Positions 32,136-54,204 of a stretch of 64,000 nucleotides of DNA are shown one piece after another. Under the pieces are notes generated by a model. That model did no database searches, was not told the origin of the DNA, and saw nothing but the letters and a program-made list of their open reading frames with translations. Both the position numbers and the translations under genes were made by a program. Position 1 is the first letter of the stretch. Each line of letters opens with the position of its first letter. Origin of the DNA: a bacterium (GTDB lineage Bacteria > UBP6 > UBA1177); the NCBI GenBank assembly GCA_016290135.1, contig JAEESW010000007.1, positions 1 through 64,000 on the forward strand, read 5' to 3'.

Positions 32136-32187
32136 AAACCGGATAGAATTCTTTGTTTTTTTCTTTGATTCTTTGTTGAGGTTACAA

Positions 32188-35100
32188 ATGAAAAGGATTT
32201 TTTTTGCATTCGCGATCCTTCTCGGCATCGTCTCTTTAAGCGGCGCTGAGCTTTTTTACGATGACGGGACACGCGTTCCGATGAAAAAATCAGAGGAATT
32301 GAGTGCGGTCAAAACCAAAGCTTCGGATGCGGAAAAGCAGAAAGGGGCAGTCTACGGCATGAATACCGGACGCTATGTCTACTCTTTCGTGAGCGGCAGG
32401 AAAGGCGGATACGGTCTTCCTGTTTATTTTCTGGGAGAAACACCGGTCGTTGCGGAAAGCAGGATTTTCTGGCGTGGTGAGAACTCCGTCGAATATATGG
32501 AAGAAAAGTACGGGATGAAGCTCTCCGAAATATTGCCGAGTTATGCGCTCTACTCCTTTTCTATCGAGGGGGACAGCGTTGAGATCTCCGAAAAGATAGT
32601 GAAAAACGGCGACGGTTACGCGTTCCCGGATCTAGTGCGCGAAACGACCATAAATTTCGTGCCGGCAAGTTCACCGGCTGATCCTTATTTCAATATGCAG
32701 TGGCATCTGAAAAACACAGGAACGGCTACATTCCATTATAGCAACGCCGATCTCGACAGACCTGTCGTGGCAAATGCCGACGTGAAATTCCTTCAGGCGC
32801 TCGAATTCCTGCACAACAACAATTTTGAGGTCGATACGAATACGAAGATCGCGATAATGGACAGCGGTGTTTCGCCTGATCATGAAGATCTGACGAATCT
32901 TGATGCCGGTTGGGATGCTTTGGAGAATAAGGAAGGCGGTTATCCTAACGATGTTTTTGTGACCGGTGACGACCACGGAACGCAGTGTGCCGGTGTCAGC
33001 GCAGGTGCCGGAAATGATATCGGAATGAGCGGAGTATGTCCGTGGTGCAGGATCTATCCTTTGAGATGGATCAGCGGACAGACTTCTGCGCACTCTTCTT
33101 CCGATATGCTCGCGGTTTACGAAAGATATCTTGCAGATCCTGATATCACCACGATAAACTGCAGTTTCGGACCGACTGCCCAGAACGGTGTCTCCTATGT
33201 TTACCCCGATGAGATCACGGCGATCAGGAGTTTCATGCAGAACGGAAGAAACGGAAAAGGAGGAGTTGTCGTCTATTCATCGGGAAACGACAATGTCGAT
33301 TCTTCTTACAAACGCTATCTTGAGTATGATTTCAAATTTAAAAGAAACGGTGTCGAAGTTACAAACAGAGTCGTTACCGTAAACGCGACGACAGCATGGG
33401 ACACGAAAGCGGAATACTCGAATTACGGCTATGCATCGACTGTTTCTGCTCCTTCGCGTTCGAACGGACCGATGGTAGGTATTGCGACGGCTACGATCCC
33501 CGGTCACGGAGAGTATCCGGCAGCCGGCTCGGATTACACGCGTCTTTTCAGCGGAACTTCTGCAGCGGCTCCCGTAGTTTCGGGTCTTTTCGGCGTTATA
33601 TTCAGCGTAAATCCTGAGCTTACGCTTGAAGAAGCAGTGGAGATCCTCAAGCAGAGTGCCGATAAAATCAATCCGGAAACAGGTTTCTGGGATGAGAACG
33701 GTTTCAGTGTGAAATACGGCTACGGCAGGGTGAATCTTGAAAAAGCCGTGCGTCTCGCCAAAGGTTTTACGATGTGCGGAAATGTTACAGGCGAGGTTTG
33801 CGGAAACCATCTCGACGATGACTGCGACGGCTATGTCGATGAAGGGTGTTCTTCACCGCTTCCTGCCGGAAATCCCTGTTCAACGGATGCCGACTGTGTG
33901 AGCGGCCCGTGGAAGGCTTCTGATGTCAAATGCCTGACCTCGCGTGAAGCGTGGGTATTTAGAGGCGGATACTGTTTCGTTAAATCAACTCTTTATTCCC
34001 CGAGTCTGATCTATTCCTTTGCGCCGTGTCCCGACGGAACAAAGATCCTCGGCGGCAGAGAAAATGACTACGACTATTACTGCGCGCTCGAATGTAACAG
34101 AGAACATCCGTGTCAGAGAGAAGGATATTACTGCACAGACGATGTCCTCGGTATCTGTGTGCCGCTCTGTTCGAGCGATTCTGACTGCACTGAAGGTTAT
34201 TCATGCAGCGACAGCGGACACTGCACTTCGGTGTGCGGAAACGGCCGGATCGATGACGGCGAAGCCTGCGACAACGGCGACGACAACGGTGCGCTGTACT
34301 GCGCTTACGGTGAGTCCAGCTGCACTGTCTGCACCTCGGAATGTCAGGAGACGGCAGGAAAGACTTCATTCTGCGGTGACTGGAAGATCGATCCTCACAA
34401 TGGCGAAGAATGCGATAAAGGTTATTACAACAACGGGAATCTGAACTGTACTTACGGAGAGATGAGCTGCACTGTATGCACATCTGACTGCAGGGAAACT
34501 GCCGGAACGATCTCCTACTGCGGCGACGGAGTCGCAAACTCTGGCTATGAGACCTGCGACGACGGCTCCGACAACGGCAGGACCGACTGCACCTACGGAG
34601 AACACTCCTGCACAGTCTGCACGACAGGATGCCAGCGCGCCTCAGGTGCAACTTCCTACTGCGGCGACAGCAGGATCGACGGAACAAACGGGGAGGTCTG
34701 TGACAACGGTTCCGACAACGGCAGAACGGCATGTGCTTACGGCGAACACTCCTGCACAGTCTGTACGACAGGCTGCAAACCAGTGGAAGGCACGATCTCC
34801 TACTGCGGCGACGGCAGGATCGATGCGGCAAACGGGGAGACCTGCGACGATCCTGCAACAAACGGACAAAAGGACTGCGCTTACGGCGAAGAGAGCTGCA
34901 CGGTCTGCACGAGTACCTGCGTCACGGCATCAGGCACGACCTCTTTCTGCGGTGACGGAACGGTCGACAGCGCAAACGGCGAAGCCTGCGACAACGGTTT
35001 TGACAACGGCAGAACAAACTGCGCTTACGGTGAGACCGGCTGTAATGTCTGCACGAACGAATGTCTGATCGAGGTCGGAACGACTTCCTACTGCGGCGAC

Positions 35101-35442
35101 GGATATGTGGATGCCGAAGGCGGTGAGATCTGCGATGACGGAGATGATAACGGAAGTAACGGTCTTTGCACTTCGGAATGTAAAGAGGAAGTTCCCGACG
35201 AAGGCGACACTGTTCCCGACGAAGGCGACACTGTTCCCGACGAAGGCGACACTGTTCCCGACGAAGGCGATACCGCTCCCGACGAAGGCGACACTTCTGA
35301 AGAAAATTCGGACAGCACGGAAGTTATCTCTGACGAAGATGCTGAAGCCGGTGATAACCCGGAGGGATCTTCCTCAGACGATGGAGAGATGCGCGGAGAT
35401 GAAACGAAAAAAAGCGGAGGCTGTTCGCTCCTTGTGTTATAA
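32188..35442 (+). CDS. Secreted subtilase with cysteine-rich repeats and SGGCS tail
   Basis: A 1084-residue exported serine protease (peptidase S8). Signal peptide 1-19, then a propeptide-like region ending before DPYFNMQWHL. The triad is D225 (IMDSGV), H263 (DHGTQCAG) and S458 (FSGTSAAAP), with the oxyanion Asn in SSGND. A MopE-like motif GNHLDDDCDGYVDEGC follows. Then come EGF-like cysteine pairs and seven repeats of about 45-50 residues of the CGDG...GE.CD.G.DNG type. The tail is five PDEGDTV repeats, an acidic stretch, and KKSGGCSLLVL at the very end. The start at 32188 has GAGG upstream. The paralogue follows 61 bp later. Probably cell-surface bound through the tail (inference). Confidence 0.9.
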   Translation: MKRIFFAFAILLGIVSLSGAELFYDDGTRVPMKKSEELSAVKTKASDAEKQKGAVYGMNTGRYVYSFVSGRKGGYGLPVYFLGETPVVAESRIFWRGENSVEYMEEKYGMKLSEILPSYALYSFSIEGDSVEISEKIVKNGDGYAFPDLVRETTINFVPASSPADPYFNMQWHLKNTGTATFHYSNADLDRPVVANADVKFLQALEFLHNNNFEVDTNTKIAIMDSGVSPDHEDLTNLDAGWDALENKEGGYPNDVFVTGDDHGTQCAGVSAGAGNDIGMSGVCPWCRIYPLRWISGQTSAHSSSDMLAVYERYLADPDITTINCSFGPTAQNGVSYVYPDEITAIRSFMQNGRNGKGGVVVYSSGNDNVDSSYKRYLEYDFKFKRNGVEVTNRVVTVNATTAWDTKAEYSNYGYASTVSAPSRSNGPMVGIATATIPGHGEYPAAGSDYTRLFSGTSAAAPVVSGLFGVIFSVNPELTLEEAVEILKQSADKINPETGFWDENGFSVKYGYGRVNLEKAVRLAKGFTMCGNVTGEVCGNHLDDDCDGYVDEGCSSPLPAGNPCSTDADCVSGPWKASDVKCLTSREAWVFRGGYCFVKSTLYSPSLIYSFAPCPDGTKILGGRENDYDYYCALECNREHPCQREGYYCTDDVLGICVPLCSSDSDCTEGYSCSDSGHCTSVCGNGRIDDGEACDNGDDNGALYCAYGESSCTVCTSECQETAGKTSFCGDWKIDPHNGEECDKGYYNNGNLNCTYGEMSCTVCTSDCRETAGTISYCGDGVANSGYETCDDGSDNGRTDCTYGEHSCTVCTTGCQRASGATSYCGDSRIDGTNGEVCDNGSDNGRTACAYGEHSCTVCTTGCKPVEGTISYCGDGRIDAANGETCDDPATNGQKDCAYGEESCTVCTSTCVTASGTTSFCGDGTVDSANGEACDNGFDNGRTNCAYGETGCNVCTNECLIEVGTTSYCGDGYVDAEGGEICDDGDDNGSNGLCTSECKEEVPDEGDTVPDEGDTVPDEGDTVPDEGDTAPDEGDTSEENSDSTEVISDEDAEAGDNPEGSSSDDGEMRGDETKKSGGCSLLVL
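35191..35295 (+). repeat. 21-bp tandem repeat, five copies, in the subtilase gene
   Basis: Units of GTTCCCGACGAAGGCGACACT start at 35191, 35212, 35233, 35254 and 35275; the last two carry one or two changes. Each encodes VPDEGDT. The first three are identical, so copy number is likely to vary between strains. Confidence 0.95.
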
Positions 35443-35503
35443 AATGCTCGAAAAAAATAAAAATATTATATGATAACTGGTTTTTTGATTGCAGAGGTTT
35501 AAG

Positions 35504-38059
35504 ATGAAAAAAATCTTTTTTGCGTTTTTAATCTTTTTTAGTGCGCTCGTTGTGAGCGGTGCTGAGCTTTTTTACAGCAACGGAAGCAGTATTTCCATCG
35601 CAAAGGCGGAGAACTACAGCGTCATCAAAAGTGCTCCTTCGGCAGTTTTTGCTCCTAAAAACGAGCTTTACCGGCTGAATACCGGAAGCAGTGTCTACTC
35701 TTTCGTCATCGGGAACGGAGGGGAACTTCCGGTCTATTTTCTTGGCGATATGCCGGTCGTTGCTGAACGGATGATCTTCTGGCGCGGGGAAAAAGCGGTC
35801 GAATATATTGAGAAAAAATACGGGCTCAGACTTGTCGAAATAATGCCTTCTTATCCGCTTTACGTCTTTGCGGTGAAGGGGGACAGCGTTGAGACTGCGG
35901 AAAAAATCGTGAAAGAGGGCGACGGTTACGCTTTTCCTGACCTCGTGCGCGAAACGACTCTCAGAATGGTGCCGGCGAGCGCGCCGAAGGATCCTTATTT
36001 CGATGTGCAGTGGCATTTGCAGAATACAGGAAAGGTCAAGGATTATCAGGGAAAAGATGTCAGCATCATGAAAAACGCCGATACAAAATTCATCCAGATG
36101 CTCGAATTCCTGAATTCCAACAATATTGAAGTCGATACTAATACTAAAATTGCGATAATGGATACCGGTATCGTGCCGGACCACGAGGATCTCACGAATA
36201 TCGAACCGGGCTATGACGCTTTGCAGGACAAAGAGGGCGGATATCCCGATATTTCGGAACTCGAAGAGTCTCCTTATGCCGACTATTATGCTTCAAGTGT
36301 CGGTCACGGAACGACTTGCGCAGGTGTCAGCGCAGGTGTCGGAAACGAGATCGGAATGAGCGGTATGTGCCCGTGGTGCAGGCTTTATCCGGTAAGATAT
36401 CTCGAAGGTATCTCCGGAACAGCAATGTCGAGCGAGACGACTCTCAAGGCTTATGAAAAATATGTGGCTGACCCTGATATTTCAGTAGTAAACTGCAGTT
36501 TCGGCCCGGATTCCTCATTCGGAATAATTCCCGTTTCTCCCGATGAGATCGAAACTCACCGCAACTTTATGCAGAACGGTAGAGGAGGAAAGGGCGGTGT
36601 CATCGTATATGCATCAGGAAATGACGGGATCGATTCTTCATACGAGCAGCTCCTCGGCTACGATTTCGTTTTCGAGAGAGACGGTGTCGAAGTTACAGAC
36701 CGTGTAGTTACGGTCAACGCTTCCTCGGCATGGGATATGAGAGTCGAATATTCAAATTACGGGTATTACTCGACTGTAATAGCTCCGTCGCTTTCGGAAA
36801 CTCCGATCGTAGGCATCGCCACGACATCTATTCCCGGTTACGGCGATTACAAAGGAGACTACACCCTTCTGTTTTCCGGGACTTCTGCGGCGGCCCCGGT
36901 AGTTTCAGGCTTTTTTGGTGCGATATTCAGCATAAATCCTGATCTTACGCTTGAAGAGGCTATAGATATCCTGAAAAAAAGTGCCGATAAAATCAATCCG
37001 GAAACCGGACTTTGGGACAAAAACGGTTTTAGTGTAAAATTCGGCTACGGAAGAGTAAACCTTGAAAAAGCAGCGCGTCTTGCGGCTGGGTTTACGATGT
37101 GTGACGGTGAAAAGGAGGAAAGCTGCGGGAATCATATCGATGATGACTGCGACGGCTTTGTCGATGAAGGCTGCGCCGATGAACTTACTGTCGGAAAACC
37201 GTGTGAAACGGCTGCCGACTGTCAGACAGACACCCTTGCGGCAGCTGATGCCGAATGTTTGAAAGTGCGCCGTTACTGGATCTTTGAAGGCGGTTACTGC
37301 GCAGCAAAAAGCGGCAGCTCGCCGTGCCCCGATGGAACAAAGCCTTTGGATGCCACTGATGACAGACAGAATTATATCTGCGCTCTTGAGTGCAACAGTG
37401 TCAAACCTTGCGAAAGGGAGGGGTATTACTGCTCCAACGAGCTTCTCGGAGTCTGTCTGCCTTCTTGTACCGACAATTCAGGCTGCAACGACGGCTCTTT
37501 CTGCAATGATGAGGGCAGATGCGAGAAAATTCCCGGACCGATCGGCGGAAGCTGCTCCAATGATGACGAATGCAATGGCGAATTTACGACATGCAATATC
37601 TGGTTTACAGGCGGATACTGCACGCAGGAGTGTTTCGACAACGAAGATTCCGACTGTCCTGACAATGCAAAGTGTGTGACAAACGGAAGACGCCAGACGA
37701 CATCTTGTCTCGCTTCATGCGCTTCAGACAAAGACTGCAGGACCGGTGAAGGCTACCTCTGCCATCCGAAGATGGGTTCGAAAAGCGGAGTCTGTTACAG
37801 AAAATGCCGCAGCAACAGCGACTGCAGTGATGAAGATGCTGTCTGCAACGAAGACGGTTACTGCGCACTCGAGGACTGGAAAGGCTGGCCTGAAGAAGAG
37901 CCTGAAGAAGGATCTGGAGACGATGACAGTGATGCAGATGCCGGCAGTGATGAAGAAGCGGAAGAAGATGCTTTGTCTGACGACGATGCTGCTTCTGATG
38001 ACGACAGCGGATCCGGACAGAAAAAGAAGAGCGGCGGATGCTCGATCGTTGTGATGTAG
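35504..38059 (+). CDS. Secreted subtilase paralogue with SGGCS tail
   Basis: An 851-residue sister of the preceding protease. Signal peptide 1-18, propeptide-like region, DPYFDVQWHL, and the triad D220 (IMDTGI), H268 (GHGTTCAG), S461 (FSGTSAAAP). A MopE-like GNHIDDDCDGFVDEGC and several EGF-like cysteine blocks (CETAADC, CSNDDECNG) follow. It lacks the long CGDG repeat array and the PDEGDT repeats of its neighbour, having instead an acidic D/E/S tail. It ends in KKKSGGCSIVVM, the same unusual tail. The N-terminal halves are very similar, so this is a tandem duplication followed by exchange of C-terminal modules. GAGG precedes the ATG at 35504. Confidence 0.9.
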   Translation: MKKIFFAFLIFFSALVVSGAELFYSNGSSISIAKAENYSVIKSAPSAVFAPKNELYRLNTGSSVYSFVIGNGGELPVYFLGDMPVVAERMIFWRGEKAVEYIEKKYGLRLVEIMPSYPLYVFAVKGDSVETAEKIVKEGDGYAFPDLVRETTLRMVPASAPKDPYFDVQWHLQNTGKVKDYQGKDVSIMKNADTKFIQMLEFLNSNNIEVDTNTKIAIMDTGIVPDHEDLTNIEPGYDALQDKEGGYPDISELEESPYADYYASSVGHGTTCAGVSAGVGNEIGMSGMCPWCRLYPVRYLEGISGTAMSSETTLKAYEKYVADPDISVVNCSFGPDSSFGIIPVSPDEIETHRNFMQNGRGGKGGVIVYASGNDGIDSSYEQLLGYDFVFERDGVEVTDRVVTVNASSAWDMRVEYSNYGYYSTVIAPSLSETPIVGIATTSIPGYGDYKGDYTLLFSGTSAAAPVVSGFFGAIFSINPDLTLEEAIDILKKSADKINPETGLWDKNGFSVKFGYGRVNLEKAARLAAGFTMCDGEKEESCGNHIDDDCDGFVDEGCADELTVGKPCETAADCQTDTLAAADAECLKVRRYWIFEGGYCAAKSGSSPCPDGTKPLDATDDRQNYICALECNSVKPCEREGYYCSNELLGVCLPSCTDNSGCNDGSFCNDEGRCEKIPGPIGGSCSNDDECNGEFTTCNIWFTGGYCTQECFDNEDSDCPDNAKCVTNGRRQTTSCLASCASDKDCRTGEGYLCHPKMGSKSGVCYRKCRSNSDCSDEDAVCNEDGYCALEDWKGWPEEEPEEGSGDDDSDADAGSDEEAEEDALSDDDAASDDDSGSGQKKKSGGCSIVVM

Positions 38060-51087: not shown

Positions 51088-54000
51088 TTATCTCTCTGTG
51101 CCTGATTTTCTCGTGAATGCGAATCCGAGAATGAAGAGAAGTGCTGCAAGGACTGCGAAGATCCCGGTGTTCGAGTCGTCGACAGCTGTTACAGCGCAGC
51201 TTCCGCCGTCATCATCGCCGTCTGTACATGTGAAGTCGCCTTCTTCACACTTGTAGGTGAATTCTTTCGATCTGATCGGAAGACCGATGACTTCCATGTC
51301 GGAATCCTCAAGTTTGAACTTTGATTTTACTACCTCTATCTGTGCCATCTGGTCTTTCGGGATGTTGAATTCGGCAACGAGGAGCAGTGTTTTTTCTTCG
51401 TTCGCCTCGAAGGAAAGCGGGGTGTCGAGAACGAATTCCACGCTGCTTCCGACCTCATCCGGCACTACTGTAGCGATCATCTGTTCGCTTTCGTGGGATG
51501 CGTTTTTGTCCGTATCGAGGTAAAGTGAAAGCTTTTTGATGCCGTCTTTGAATTTTACCGATTTCGAAGTCGTCTTGACTGAGAATTTCTTGAGGCTGTT
51601 GCTTTGTTCGATCGATTTCGCCCTGATCTGAAGGACTGCAACCGGACCTTTGTTTATCTTGGAAAGGGAAGGAATCGCGGGTTCCGTTCCGCCTTTCGTG
51701 AAAACAAACGCTTTTGTCGTCGGTTCGAACGCAAACTCGGCGAACTGGAGCGGACTTTCCTCCATTTTGGAGGTTATCTCTTTGACATTGCTGAACTTGA
51801 AAGCTTCGATGCTCTCGATGTAAAACGAGAAGCCGGTGTTGAGCGGAACAGCTTCAGGTGTCTGGTAGGTCGCGTCAGAAACGATTATGAAGTGGTGGAG
51901 CTCGTTGACCGGATAGTTTGCATGTTCGGCTTTCAGTGCGAAAGTTACTATCTTTGAATTGACGGCAGATTCCGAAACGACATTTTCACCTTCGTCGAGA
52001 AGTCCGTTTCCGTTTTTATCGTAAACAAGTCTTATGTTGTTCAATTTTGTAGCAGCATCTTTGATGTAGACGCTTGTTACGACCGAATCAAAAGTGAAAT
52101 TCTTGTCCTTTTCTTCACTCGATGCGATGACTGAGAACTGCCCCATGACAAGATCGTTTGTAGGAGCCGGAACGATTATTTCAGAGCTGCTGACAGGTGA
52201 GTTTTTGCCTTCTGCCACAGTGATGCTGACGCTGGAAGCGAAACTTGCTTCATCAGTGACGCATGCGCCGTCTCTGCAGAGTTTGCCGGCACCGCATTCT
52301 TCGTCCTTTTCACAACCGCCGCCGTCGCCGTAACCTCCGCATGGCGTGAGGTCAGGATTTTCGCATGCAGCCGGAGAAGGACAGTTGCCGAGCGTCAGTC
52401 TGAGCGGAATGGATGTGTTGGTCTTGTAAGGTTTGCCCGAATCGTCGCTGATAATGGCGGTGTTCTCGATGACCTCGTTCTTTGCAAGGTTTTCTTTCGG
52501 TTTTACTTTGAAACGGACCATGATCGTCTCTTCGCAATTCTGCGTAGCCTGGTCGCAGTAGTACATCATATCGGCGACTTTATACGGAGTCGCGAGAGGG
52601 AATTCGCCGTTGTTGTCTTCGATCGGGATCCACTTTTTGCAGACATTTTCGCTTTTCCACTCTTTACACATTTCGGTCGTGCCGGGAACGTATGAGATCT
52701 TGTTGACTGCAAGTGTATCCTGAACGGTTACGTTCGTCGAGATGTCGTCACCCCAGTTCTGGACCTTGATCATGAAGTAGAAAGGTGCTGTAGAGCAGAT
52801 CGAATCGGCTGTTTCGGAGCATGAGCAGTAGTTTTTCTCCCTTCCGTCAGGAGTTGCCGGGTTCATAGGAATATCGTATCTCGGAGCTTTCGTATCGACA
52901 GAGACGACCATGAAGTTCGTGTAGATGACGTCTCTGTTTGCACCGATCCTTATGAACATGTTGGTGTCGCCTTTTTTGAACTGCTCGTCGTAGAGCGGGT
53001 TCATTTCTGCATCAAGCAGGAAGGTATCGACATCCATCGTGTATTCGAGGGTGTTCGGATCAGGATTGTTCGGATCGCCGCCGGCACATGTCGGGACTGT
53101 ATCCTGCCATCCGTAGATGCTCGAGATCGAGTTGTAGGTCTCGGAGTAGTTGAAAGGAGTGCCGTCGGAATCCTGGAATTTTGCGGGGTTGCACTCGTTC
53201 TGAACGATAACGGTGCTTTCAGGCGGAGTCGTCTGGCCTGTTACCTGAAGACCTTCCGGGGGACAGGAACCGCCGAGCAGACCGCTGCCGCAGCCTGAAG
53301 CGTAAGCGAATCCCGGGTCGCCTTCATGGACCGCGAAAGTCATTTTTACGATAGGTTTGTCGGGAAATTCAAAGCCCGAAATGCCGAGGTCGACATACTG
53401 GCCGGCATACTGGCTGAAACCGTTGTAGATATAGACCATTTTCGCGTTTACTTTGGTCGAACGGTAAACCGTTATGAGCGACCAGCCGCACATAACAGTC
53501 GAACTGTATGTCGTATATCCCTGGACCTGTGAGATGTAGCCTGCGTCATTCGTGCAGGTGACATCGCTCACGGTGTAGTTTCCGTAAAGGGAAAGACCGT
53601 CTGATTTGTAGCCCAGATCTCTTCCCTGAGCGTGTATCTGGCTGAAAAAATCGGTGACGTCGACGCGGTAGGTGAAGTGTCCTCCGGTTATTGCGCCGGC
53701 ACTTTCGTAAGCTATTCCTTCGAAAGTGAAATCCTGGATGCCGGGGTTTGCGTCGGTACCGAGGGCTCCGATCCTTTCCGCAGCTACATTGGCTGTCTGG
53801 TTTATCTGACCGTCGTCCGAAGTGAAGTTGAGAGTCGCCGTGTTGTCAATCTGGCTCACATTGTTCGGATCGACACTCGCCGTCCAGACAAGGTAAGCCG
53901 CTTCGACATACGCATCTTCCGGAACATGGCGGTTGGTAAGTTTGAAAGTGCTCGAAGTAAGGCATGTGTCAGGCTCAGGGTTGCCGGGAAGGTCGCATCC

Positions 54001-54204
54001 GACCGAGCCGTCAACAGTGCAGAGGGTCCTGTTTTCATTGCTCATCAAAGATTTGAACATAACAAAATAATCGAAACTTCCGGCTTCCCACTGGAGTTCT
54101 TTGTCGTTAAGAACAGAAACATTGGGGCCGATGGTCGTTCCCGTGTAGGCAAAAACAGGAAGCGCCGTCAAAAGCGCAAGGATCAACAGAAAAAGTTTTT
54201 TCAT
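51088..54204 (-). CDS. Large surface protein with MYXO-CTERM-like anchor
   Basis: A 1038-residue exported protein. Signal peptide MKKLFLLILALLTALPVFA. The middle (about residues 470-610) has a DUF11-like beta-sandwich (NVTVQDTLAVNKISYVPG). A cysteine-rich knot (CGGYGDGGGCEKDEECGAG, near 625-640) follows, then two or three domains with EF-hand-like DKNGNGLLDEGE. The end is DDGGSC, a short spacer, one membrane helix (FAVLAALLFILGFAF) and RKSG, which is the layout of MYXO-CTERM sorting signals (Cys, helix, basic end). So it is probably processed and anchored at the cell surface. Function unknown. It has its own promoter at 54241-54268. Confidence 0.8.
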   Translation of the reverse strand: MKKLFLLILALLTALPVFAYTGTTIGPNVSVLNDKELQWEAGSFDYFVMFKSLMSNENRTLCTVDGSVGCDLPGNPEPDTCLTSSTFKLTNRHVPEDAYVEAAYLVWTASVDPNNVSQIDNTATLNFTSDDGQINQTANVAAERIGALGTDANPGIQDFTFEGIAYESAGAITGGHFTYRVDVTDFFSQIHAQGRDLGYKSDGLSLYGNYTVSDVTCTNDAGYISQVQGYTTYSSTVMCGWSLITVYRSTKVNAKMVYIYNGFSQYAGQYVDLGISGFEFPDKPIVKMTFAVHEGDPGFAYASGCGSGLLGGSCPPEGLQVTGQTTPPESTVIVQNECNPAKFQDSDGTPFNYSETYNSISSIYGWQDTVPTCAGGDPNNPDPNTLEYTMDVDTFLLDAEMNPLYDEQFKKGDTNMFIRIGANRDVIYTNFMVVSVDTKAPRYDIPMNPATPDGREKNYCSCSETADSICSTAPFYFMIKVQNWGDDISTNVTVQDTLAVNKISYVPGTTEMCKEWKSENVCKKWIPIEDNNGEFPLATPYKVADMMYYCDQATQNCEETIMVRFKVKPKENLAKNEVIENTAIISDDSGKPYKTNTSIPLRLTLGNCPSPAACENPDLTPCGGYGDGGGCEKDEECGAGKLCRDGACVTDEASFASSVSITVAEGKNSPVSSSEIIVPAPTNDLVMGQFSVIASSEEKDKNFTFDSVVTSVYIKDAATKLNNIRLVYDKNGNGLLDEGENVVSESAVNSKIVTFALKAEHANYPVNELHHFIIVSDATYQTPEAVPLNTGFSFYIESIEAFKFSNVKEITSKMEESPLQFAEFAFEPTTKAFVFTKGGTEPAIPSLSKINKGPVAVLQIRAKSIEQSNSLKKFSVKTTSKSVKFKDGIKKLSLYLDTDKNASHESEQMIATVVPDEVGSSVEFVLDTPLSFEANEEKTLLLVAEFNIPKDQMAQIEVVKSKFKLEDSDMEVIGLPIRSKEFTYKCEEGDFTCTDGDDDGGSCAVTAVDDSNTGIFAVLAALLFILGFAFTRKSGTER

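Follow-up and report, generated by a model that had tools for sequence, protein, structure and literature searches.

A short helix-less cysteine tail on exported enzymes of one bacterial order, a putative C-terminal sorting signal

Two subtilases encoded in tandem in the window (the whole stretch of DNA analysed, 64,000 nucleotides) end, as a sequence-only reading had pointed out, in K-K-(K)-S-G-G-C-S followed by four hydrophobic residues, which raises the question of whether this end is a selected signal. Both ORF translations bear out the observation, with C-termini ...DETKKSGGCSLLVL for ORF 32173-35442(+) and ...GQKKKSGGCSIVVM for ORF 35489-38059(+). The probable starts are ATG codons at 32188 and 35504, which imply the N-terminal signal peptides listed in Table 1; the start of 34226 first given for the feature falls within the first gene. 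Acidic stretches precede both tails, again as described, and the C-terminal repeat regions, which had been called different, are indeed dissimilar in a pair that shares 58% identity over 736 aa. The two genes are thus tandem paralogues, and since the shared tail could be simple inheritance, the likeness of two proteins alone is weak evidence; unrelated proteins and orthologues were therefore examined. Within the window, the pattern G-C-x-x-h-h-h-stop, where h is any codon with T in the middle, was found twice, compared to 0.08 expected from shuffles. No NCBIfam or Pfam model matched the tails of the two subtilases (no NCBIfam CTERM model at E<=10), in agreement with the suggestion that the tail is absent from known catalogues, and seven other tailed proteins gave no NCBIfam CTERM match at E<=0.5.

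Table 1. Positions of the discussed features in the window
Feature	Position	Strand	Basis
Sec signal peptide of subtilase 1 (MKRIFFAFAILLGIVSLSGA, likely ATG start)	32188..32247	+	sequence inference; no lipobox
Peptidase_S8 catalytic domain, subtilase 1	32836..33726	+	PF00082, E=1.4e-32
Acidic linker of subtilase 1 (VPDEGDT repeats and D/E/S-rich stretch)	35182..35406	+	sequence
C-terminal tail KKSGGCSLLVL and stop, subtilase 1	35407..35442	+	sequence, pattern counts
Sec signal peptide of subtilase 2 (MKKIFFAFLIFFSALVVSGA, likely ATG start)	35504..35563	+	sequence
Peptidase_S8 catalytic domain, subtilase 2	36137..37051	+	PF00082, E=9.2e-32
Acidic linker of subtilase 2	37892..38020	+	sequence
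C-terminal tail KKKSGGCSIVVM and stop, subtilase 2	38021..38059	+	sequence, pattern counts
Secreted protein with helix-bearing Cys tail (GGSCAVTAVDD...helix...RKSGTER)	51088..54204	-	sequence; no NCBIfam CTERM model match

In all complete subtilase orthologues examined, the Cys is followed by exactly five residues and the end reads G-C-[S/A] and then four residues that are mostly hydrophobic, with no conservation of the preceding linker; differences among their tails are mainly synonymous or hydrophobic swaps. The named relatives come from MAGs labelled UBP6_UBA1177, Spirochaetales RUG12558, Sumerlaeota and unclassified bacteria, so that the lineage label is uncertain, and several of these MAGs derive from rumen or reticulum samples. 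In the genome to which the window belongs, G-C-x-x-h-h-h-stop matched 20 times compared to none for the reversed pattern, and K-x-x-G-C-[S..]-x4-stop 24 times compared to five. Reading of the ORFs gave at least 17 exported proteins with the tail, including an amidase, an M4/M36-like peptidase, a phosphoesterase-like protein and unknown Cys-rich proteins. Absence of the tail from other secreted proteins and from orthologues had been named as grounds for dropping the idea, and these carriers and orthologues remove both.

The hydrophobic-tail pattern was in excess over its reversal in 18 genomes of the same family taken together (238 versus 20), in family f2 (14 versus 0) and in family f3 (26 versus 5), compared to 13 versus 8 in family f4 of the same phylum. 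Outside the order, no comparable genome-wide excess was found across 386 genomes, about 360 of which lie outside the phylum. A few outsider genomes have 7-11 matches with 0-2 in the reversed control; those that can be read mostly contain internal stops or non-tail codons, suggesting a background of about one per Mb. The reversed pattern is an imperfect control owing to codon bias, and more weight falls on the ORF reading. The K-x-x-G-C pattern is enriched in AT-rich f4, yet the codons read KIGCWGIYS, YSGCSCKKS and similar, and this family was thus counted as tail-less. Except in f4, the reversed-pattern and shuffle controls rule out chance as the source of the tail, which is enriched throughout one GTDB-type order and limited to it.

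For the anatomy of the tail we read 96 tailed ORFs, 85 of which are full-length, the rest being truncated at contig ends. G(-1) and C(0) were fixed by the search pattern, and +2 was left free by a second one. The +1 residue is S in 78, A in 10, T in five and G in three; +2 is L, V, A, M or I in 91/96; positions -3 and -2 are S, D or G, and -4 to -6 are K-rich. The 40 residues upstream are 35% acidic (D/E). The tailed enzymes have a common layout, in which a linker that is acidic and looks disordered leads into a short run of K, S, D and G, followed by G-C-[S/A/T] and four hydrophobic residues. A crude hydrophobicity score detected a strong N-terminal hydrophobic segment, i.e. a signal peptide, in 82 of the 85 full-length proteins, and an N-terminal lipobox was present within the first 40 residues of none (0/85). 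The tag length is strict, at five residues after the Cys; in the window's genus, patterns with the Cys shifted by one residue away from the stop (+6 spacing) occur only at background level. The CaaX rule of exactly three residues after Cys is accordingly not satisfied.

The tailed ORFs fall into at least 38 groups with dissimilar bodies, which include subtilases (S8), trypsin-like, C25 and M4/M36-like enzymes, Amidase_3, GH10 and metallophosphatases/phosphoesterases. Proteins with 38 dissimilar bodies average 51% pairwise identity over the last seven residues, compared to 10-18% in the blocks just upstream; part of the 51% follows from the choice of sequences by their G, C and hydrophobic codons. 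A type I secretion hydrophobic tail was rejected, as the carriers have signal peptides. The unrelated Sec-exported carriers, the fixed length, the kept residues under varying codons and the restriction to one order strongly support the original proposal of a selected C-terminal sorting signal.

The DNA encoding the tail takes an unusual form in the window's genus (g1), where KSDGCSMLF[IV]* is encoded by a repeated sequence of 27-33 nt with few synonymous differences between copies. In some cases the copy is the 3′ end of a secreted Cys-rich gene, and in others it follows directly 3′ of the stop of an unrelated gene (toxin-antitoxin-like, ATPase, acyltransferase-like and lipoprotein genes, as named by eye). 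Neighbouring copies within 10 kb share the same direction in 24/24 cases. Arrays occur at L304-L310, L056, L057 and L183-L187, and the repeat may be an uncharacterised gene-cassette joint overlapping the tail-coding sequence. At one locus compared between two species, a unit of ~1.5 kb with an ATPase-like gene is present in one (G007, L306:1625-3152) and missing in the other (G004, L307:1299-1340), with the break at the tail sequence. The repeat resembles a cassette array joint or the product of tandem growth by recombination between repeats, and these were not distinguished. It does not have the GTTRRRY...RYYYAAC palindrome of a canonical integron attC, which was rejected by eye only, without an attC model. 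Stop-codon readthrough was also considered for copies just behind a stop (L056:2225); most of these are out of frame or follow unrelated genes, which makes a remnant or joint likelier. Separately, a RibD-like, intracellular gene (L061:1492-2619) reads in frame into the repeat and ends RSDGCSKLFV, presumably by chance. As the repeat was not found in f2, f3 or the window, and the peptide tail is common in both families, it is a genus-level derivative and not the cause of the tail.

To place the tail among known signals, we compared it with MYXO-CTERM (TIGR03901). The tails share the invariant Cys in a short Gly/Cys signature and the N-terminal Sec signal peptide on the carriers; the curated model is not matched and the helix and Arg-rich end are missing, with only 4-5 residues after the last Cys. 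In f3 genomes, the +6 spacing gave 13, 20, 18, 20 and 10 matches versus 1, 1, 1, 3 and 1, and these variants read G-C-G-C-[S/T]-h-h-[F/L/M]*; most of their carriers have a signal peptide and an acidic linker. GCGC is the reported generic MYXO-CTERM signature (PMC11980579), here present without a helix or basic end behind it. The contrast with MYXO-CTERM drawn by the sequence-only reading thus stands for anatomy but not for separateness, given GCGC in a sister family and a myxosortase-like protease in the order. Judged from these two sequence features, the short tail is probably a reduced relative of MYXO-CTERM and not something unrelated. The protein at 51088-54204(-), a large secreted DUF11/DUF7619-type protein with a Cys tag, helix and basic end, has the layout of the MYXO-CTERM tail that had been claimed for it, but not the support of any NCBIfam CTERM model.

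The protease in question is the sole CPBP protein of the window's genome (G000:C22:4909-5550, equal to L220:4909-5550; PF02517, E=4.1e-13). Its best matches are myxosortase models (MrtP 84, MrtC 81, Mrt_core 78, MrtJ 61 and MrtS 61 bits), and its orthologues in the order likewise score best against such models, all below the curated cut-offs of NF040914 and relatives (Mrt_core 77-84 versus 100 bits; MrtP 84-94 versus 250). Its motifs PEEFFFRG and HVVSN fit EExxxR and HxxxN, which are reported for MrtX (PMC11980579). Genomes of f1 and f2 carry one PF02517 copy, those of f3 one or two and those of f4 two; in f4 the best CPBPs are not myxosortase-like and the second copies are. A myxosortase-like CPBP thus exists without the tail in f4 and in one unrelated genome (G037), showing that the pairing of tag and protease is not exclusive. 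Matching the tag with one enzyme by phylogenetic profile failed, as the myxosortase-like CPBP is phylum-wide, and no operon joining a tailed gene with a CPBP protease or an Lgt homologue was found.

Lgt homologues (PF01790) number 3-7 per genome in the phylum, compared to one in most outsiders. The window's genome has six (L214-L219), all above the family cut-off, five of which have a GCC[FNY]G motif and no canonical His. In the tree, the canonical class A stands apart from classes B, C, D, E and F, and several deep forks are weak. Both an Arg and a His position are important for the Lgt of E. coli. Only class A keeps His-Gly-Gly and the R-x-G-N-F-x-N-x-E signature; classes B-F retain the Arg of R-x-G-N-F (Lys in F) and the downstream E-F-x-R block, with HGG and N-F-x-N-x-E replaced by R/K-x-x-C...GCC[FNY]G. 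Class B adjoins lspA, and copies of its type are phylum-wide; class E sits in Mla-type operons and was found only in the order; almost all genomes of the order have classes C and E, neither of which was seen in f4; class D neighbours a sulfatase-type protein and a large Cys-rich protein; and class F adjoins an NRPS gene. At L219:2-4557, an Lgt-like gene lies immediately 5′ of an NRPS-like gene (condensation, AMP-binding, thioesterase) on the same strand. Class C occurs in f3 as a fusion with a long sensor-like protein (L226:1467-5225 and counterparts in G020, G022 and G023, with the Lgt-like domain joined to a sensor/AraC-like protein of ~950 residues). A tandem lspA-lspA-lgt-lgt was seen in f4 (L229:4233-7092). 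Copies beside an NRPS gene or in an Mla-type operon make other substrates possible, and the non-canonical paralogues may serve these while the normal Lgt lipidates the tail.

Beyond the tag and its distribution, which we established directly, its function can only be inferred, by analogy with Myxococcus xanthus. There, the tag is cut by MrtX in a reaction that requires the invariant Cys, the enzyme most favoured for lipidating that Cys beforehand is an Lgt-like acyltransferase, and T2SS has been proposed as the route of the tagged protein to the surface (PMC11980579). We propose that the short tail is a minimal, helix-less Cys sorting signal of the MYXO-CTERM/myxosortase type, a reading to which we give slightly better than even odds (about 0.52). 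The carrier would be exported by Sec across the inner membrane, an Lgt-type transferase would add lipid to the invariant Cys, and the order's myxosortase-like CPBP protease would take off the residues after it, as Rce1 trims the CaaX box. The enzyme would then be held on the cell envelope or surface by its C-terminal lipid, with the acidic linker as a spacer. Lipid attachment at the tail Cys is plausible but unproven, and both trimming by the CPBP protein and the Lgt class that acts remain open. The weak point of the model is that nothing indicates how a helix-less, soluble tail reaches membrane enzymes, and no chemistry has been observed. In a bolder form, which we regard as doubtful, the tail would be an extracytoplasmic bacterial counterpart of the CaaX box, lipidated by dedicated His-less GCC[FNY]G Lgt paralogues and trimmed by the myxosortase-like protease, and in one genus its DNA would be a cassette-array joint through which captured genes can gain the tag by recombination.

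Alternatively, a secretion machine of the outer membrane or a transpeptidase in the periplasm (sortase-like or T2SS/T9SS-like) could recognise the tail and cut before or at the Cys, the protein being attached or released without a Cys lipid. Its carriers are secreted hydrolases with spacer-like linkers, as are GlyGly-CTERM and T9SS cargo, and the strict C-terminal length suits end-on recognition; the second Cys of the GCGC tails fits lipidation better, however, and the order's CPBP matches myxosortases, so we consider this unlikely, although T2SS and sortase gene content was not part of the comparison. Slightly less likely still is a Cys that is lipidated in an uncut tail, whose hydrophobic residues only aid transferase binding while the protease serves helix-bearing tags such as that of 51088-54204. 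Such a tag is present in the same window, f4 has the protease without the short tail and Lgt paralogues are abundant, but it is hard to explain the kept length after the Cys without a trimming enzyme, and one helix-bearing tag stands against tens of short tails, in a scan of order sequence mostly chosen around short tails.

A disulfide or thioether between secreted proteins or to a polymer, with the hydrophobic end as a folding or degradation determinant, would suit the many Cys-rich tailed proteins; it appears improbable, as it leaves the fixed spacing to the stop, the hydrophobic end and the missing lipoboxes unexplained. The least credible view is of an incidental peptide, produced because 3′ ends carry a repeated recombination joint. 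The g1 repeat, which also stands behind stops and in co-directional arrays, is the basis for it, and its absence from the window and from f2 and f3, where the peptide tail is common with varied codons, already largely refutes it.

To our knowledge, every catalogued Gram-negative C-terminal sorting tag depends on a membrane helix. That dozens of secreted hydrolases from an uncultured order carry a tag with five residues after the Cys implies that this tag class can do without the helix. Its small size also makes the tail a convenient substrate with which to ask what enzyme adds lipid to Cys tags of the myxosortase type. For these largely rumen bacteria, it suggests a way to keep proteases, amidases and glycosidases at the surface. 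For annotation, G-C-[SAT]-h4-stop or GCGC[ST]hh[FLM]-stop after an acidic linker can serve as a rule.

Among known systems, the eukaryotic CaaX box has a similar order of a Lys-rich stretch, small residues, Cys and a few aliphatic residues before the stop, as in Rho-type ends such as KKKSGCLVL, and Rce1 belongs to the same protease superfamily as the order's CPBP. In contrast, three residues follow the Cys in CaaX compared to five here (four after the second Cys), and the tailed proteins are Sec-exported. The G-C-S core also resembles the L-[AS]-[GA]-C-S lipobox of the Lgt/LspA pathway, whose Lgt homologues are expanded here, but the tail is C-terminal, has no hydrophobic helix before the Cys and would present an inverted topology, and its carriers are without an N-terminal lipobox. 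GlyGly-CTERM/rhombosortase, PEP-CTERM/exosortase and LPXTG/sortase share the many-to-one logic and the spacer with a short C-terminal signature, but all have a helix and basic end and another signature. JDVT-CTERM/MrtJ and Synerg-CTERM/MrtS (NCBIfam models) likewise combine a Cys tag with a small CPBP protease, and the order's protease scores 56-72 bits against these models; these tags also carry a helix and basic end, and no two-gene neighbourhood of tag and protease was seen for the short tail. The system most like it is MYXO-CTERM/MrtX, which likewise tags the C-termini of surface hydrolases and adhesins exported by Sec (Guo, Haft, Wall 2025, PMC11980579) and shares the invariant Cys after Gly, extending to GCGC in f3, and a CPBP protease with conserved motifs. 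It differs in that the short tail has no transmembrane helix or Arg-rich end, with 4-5 residues after the last Cys, the order's protease falls below the myxosortase cut-offs and an experimental demonstration is lacking for the short tail. Thus, the tag is real, new to the catalogues searched and best filed as a variant of the Cys-type CTERM sorting signals.
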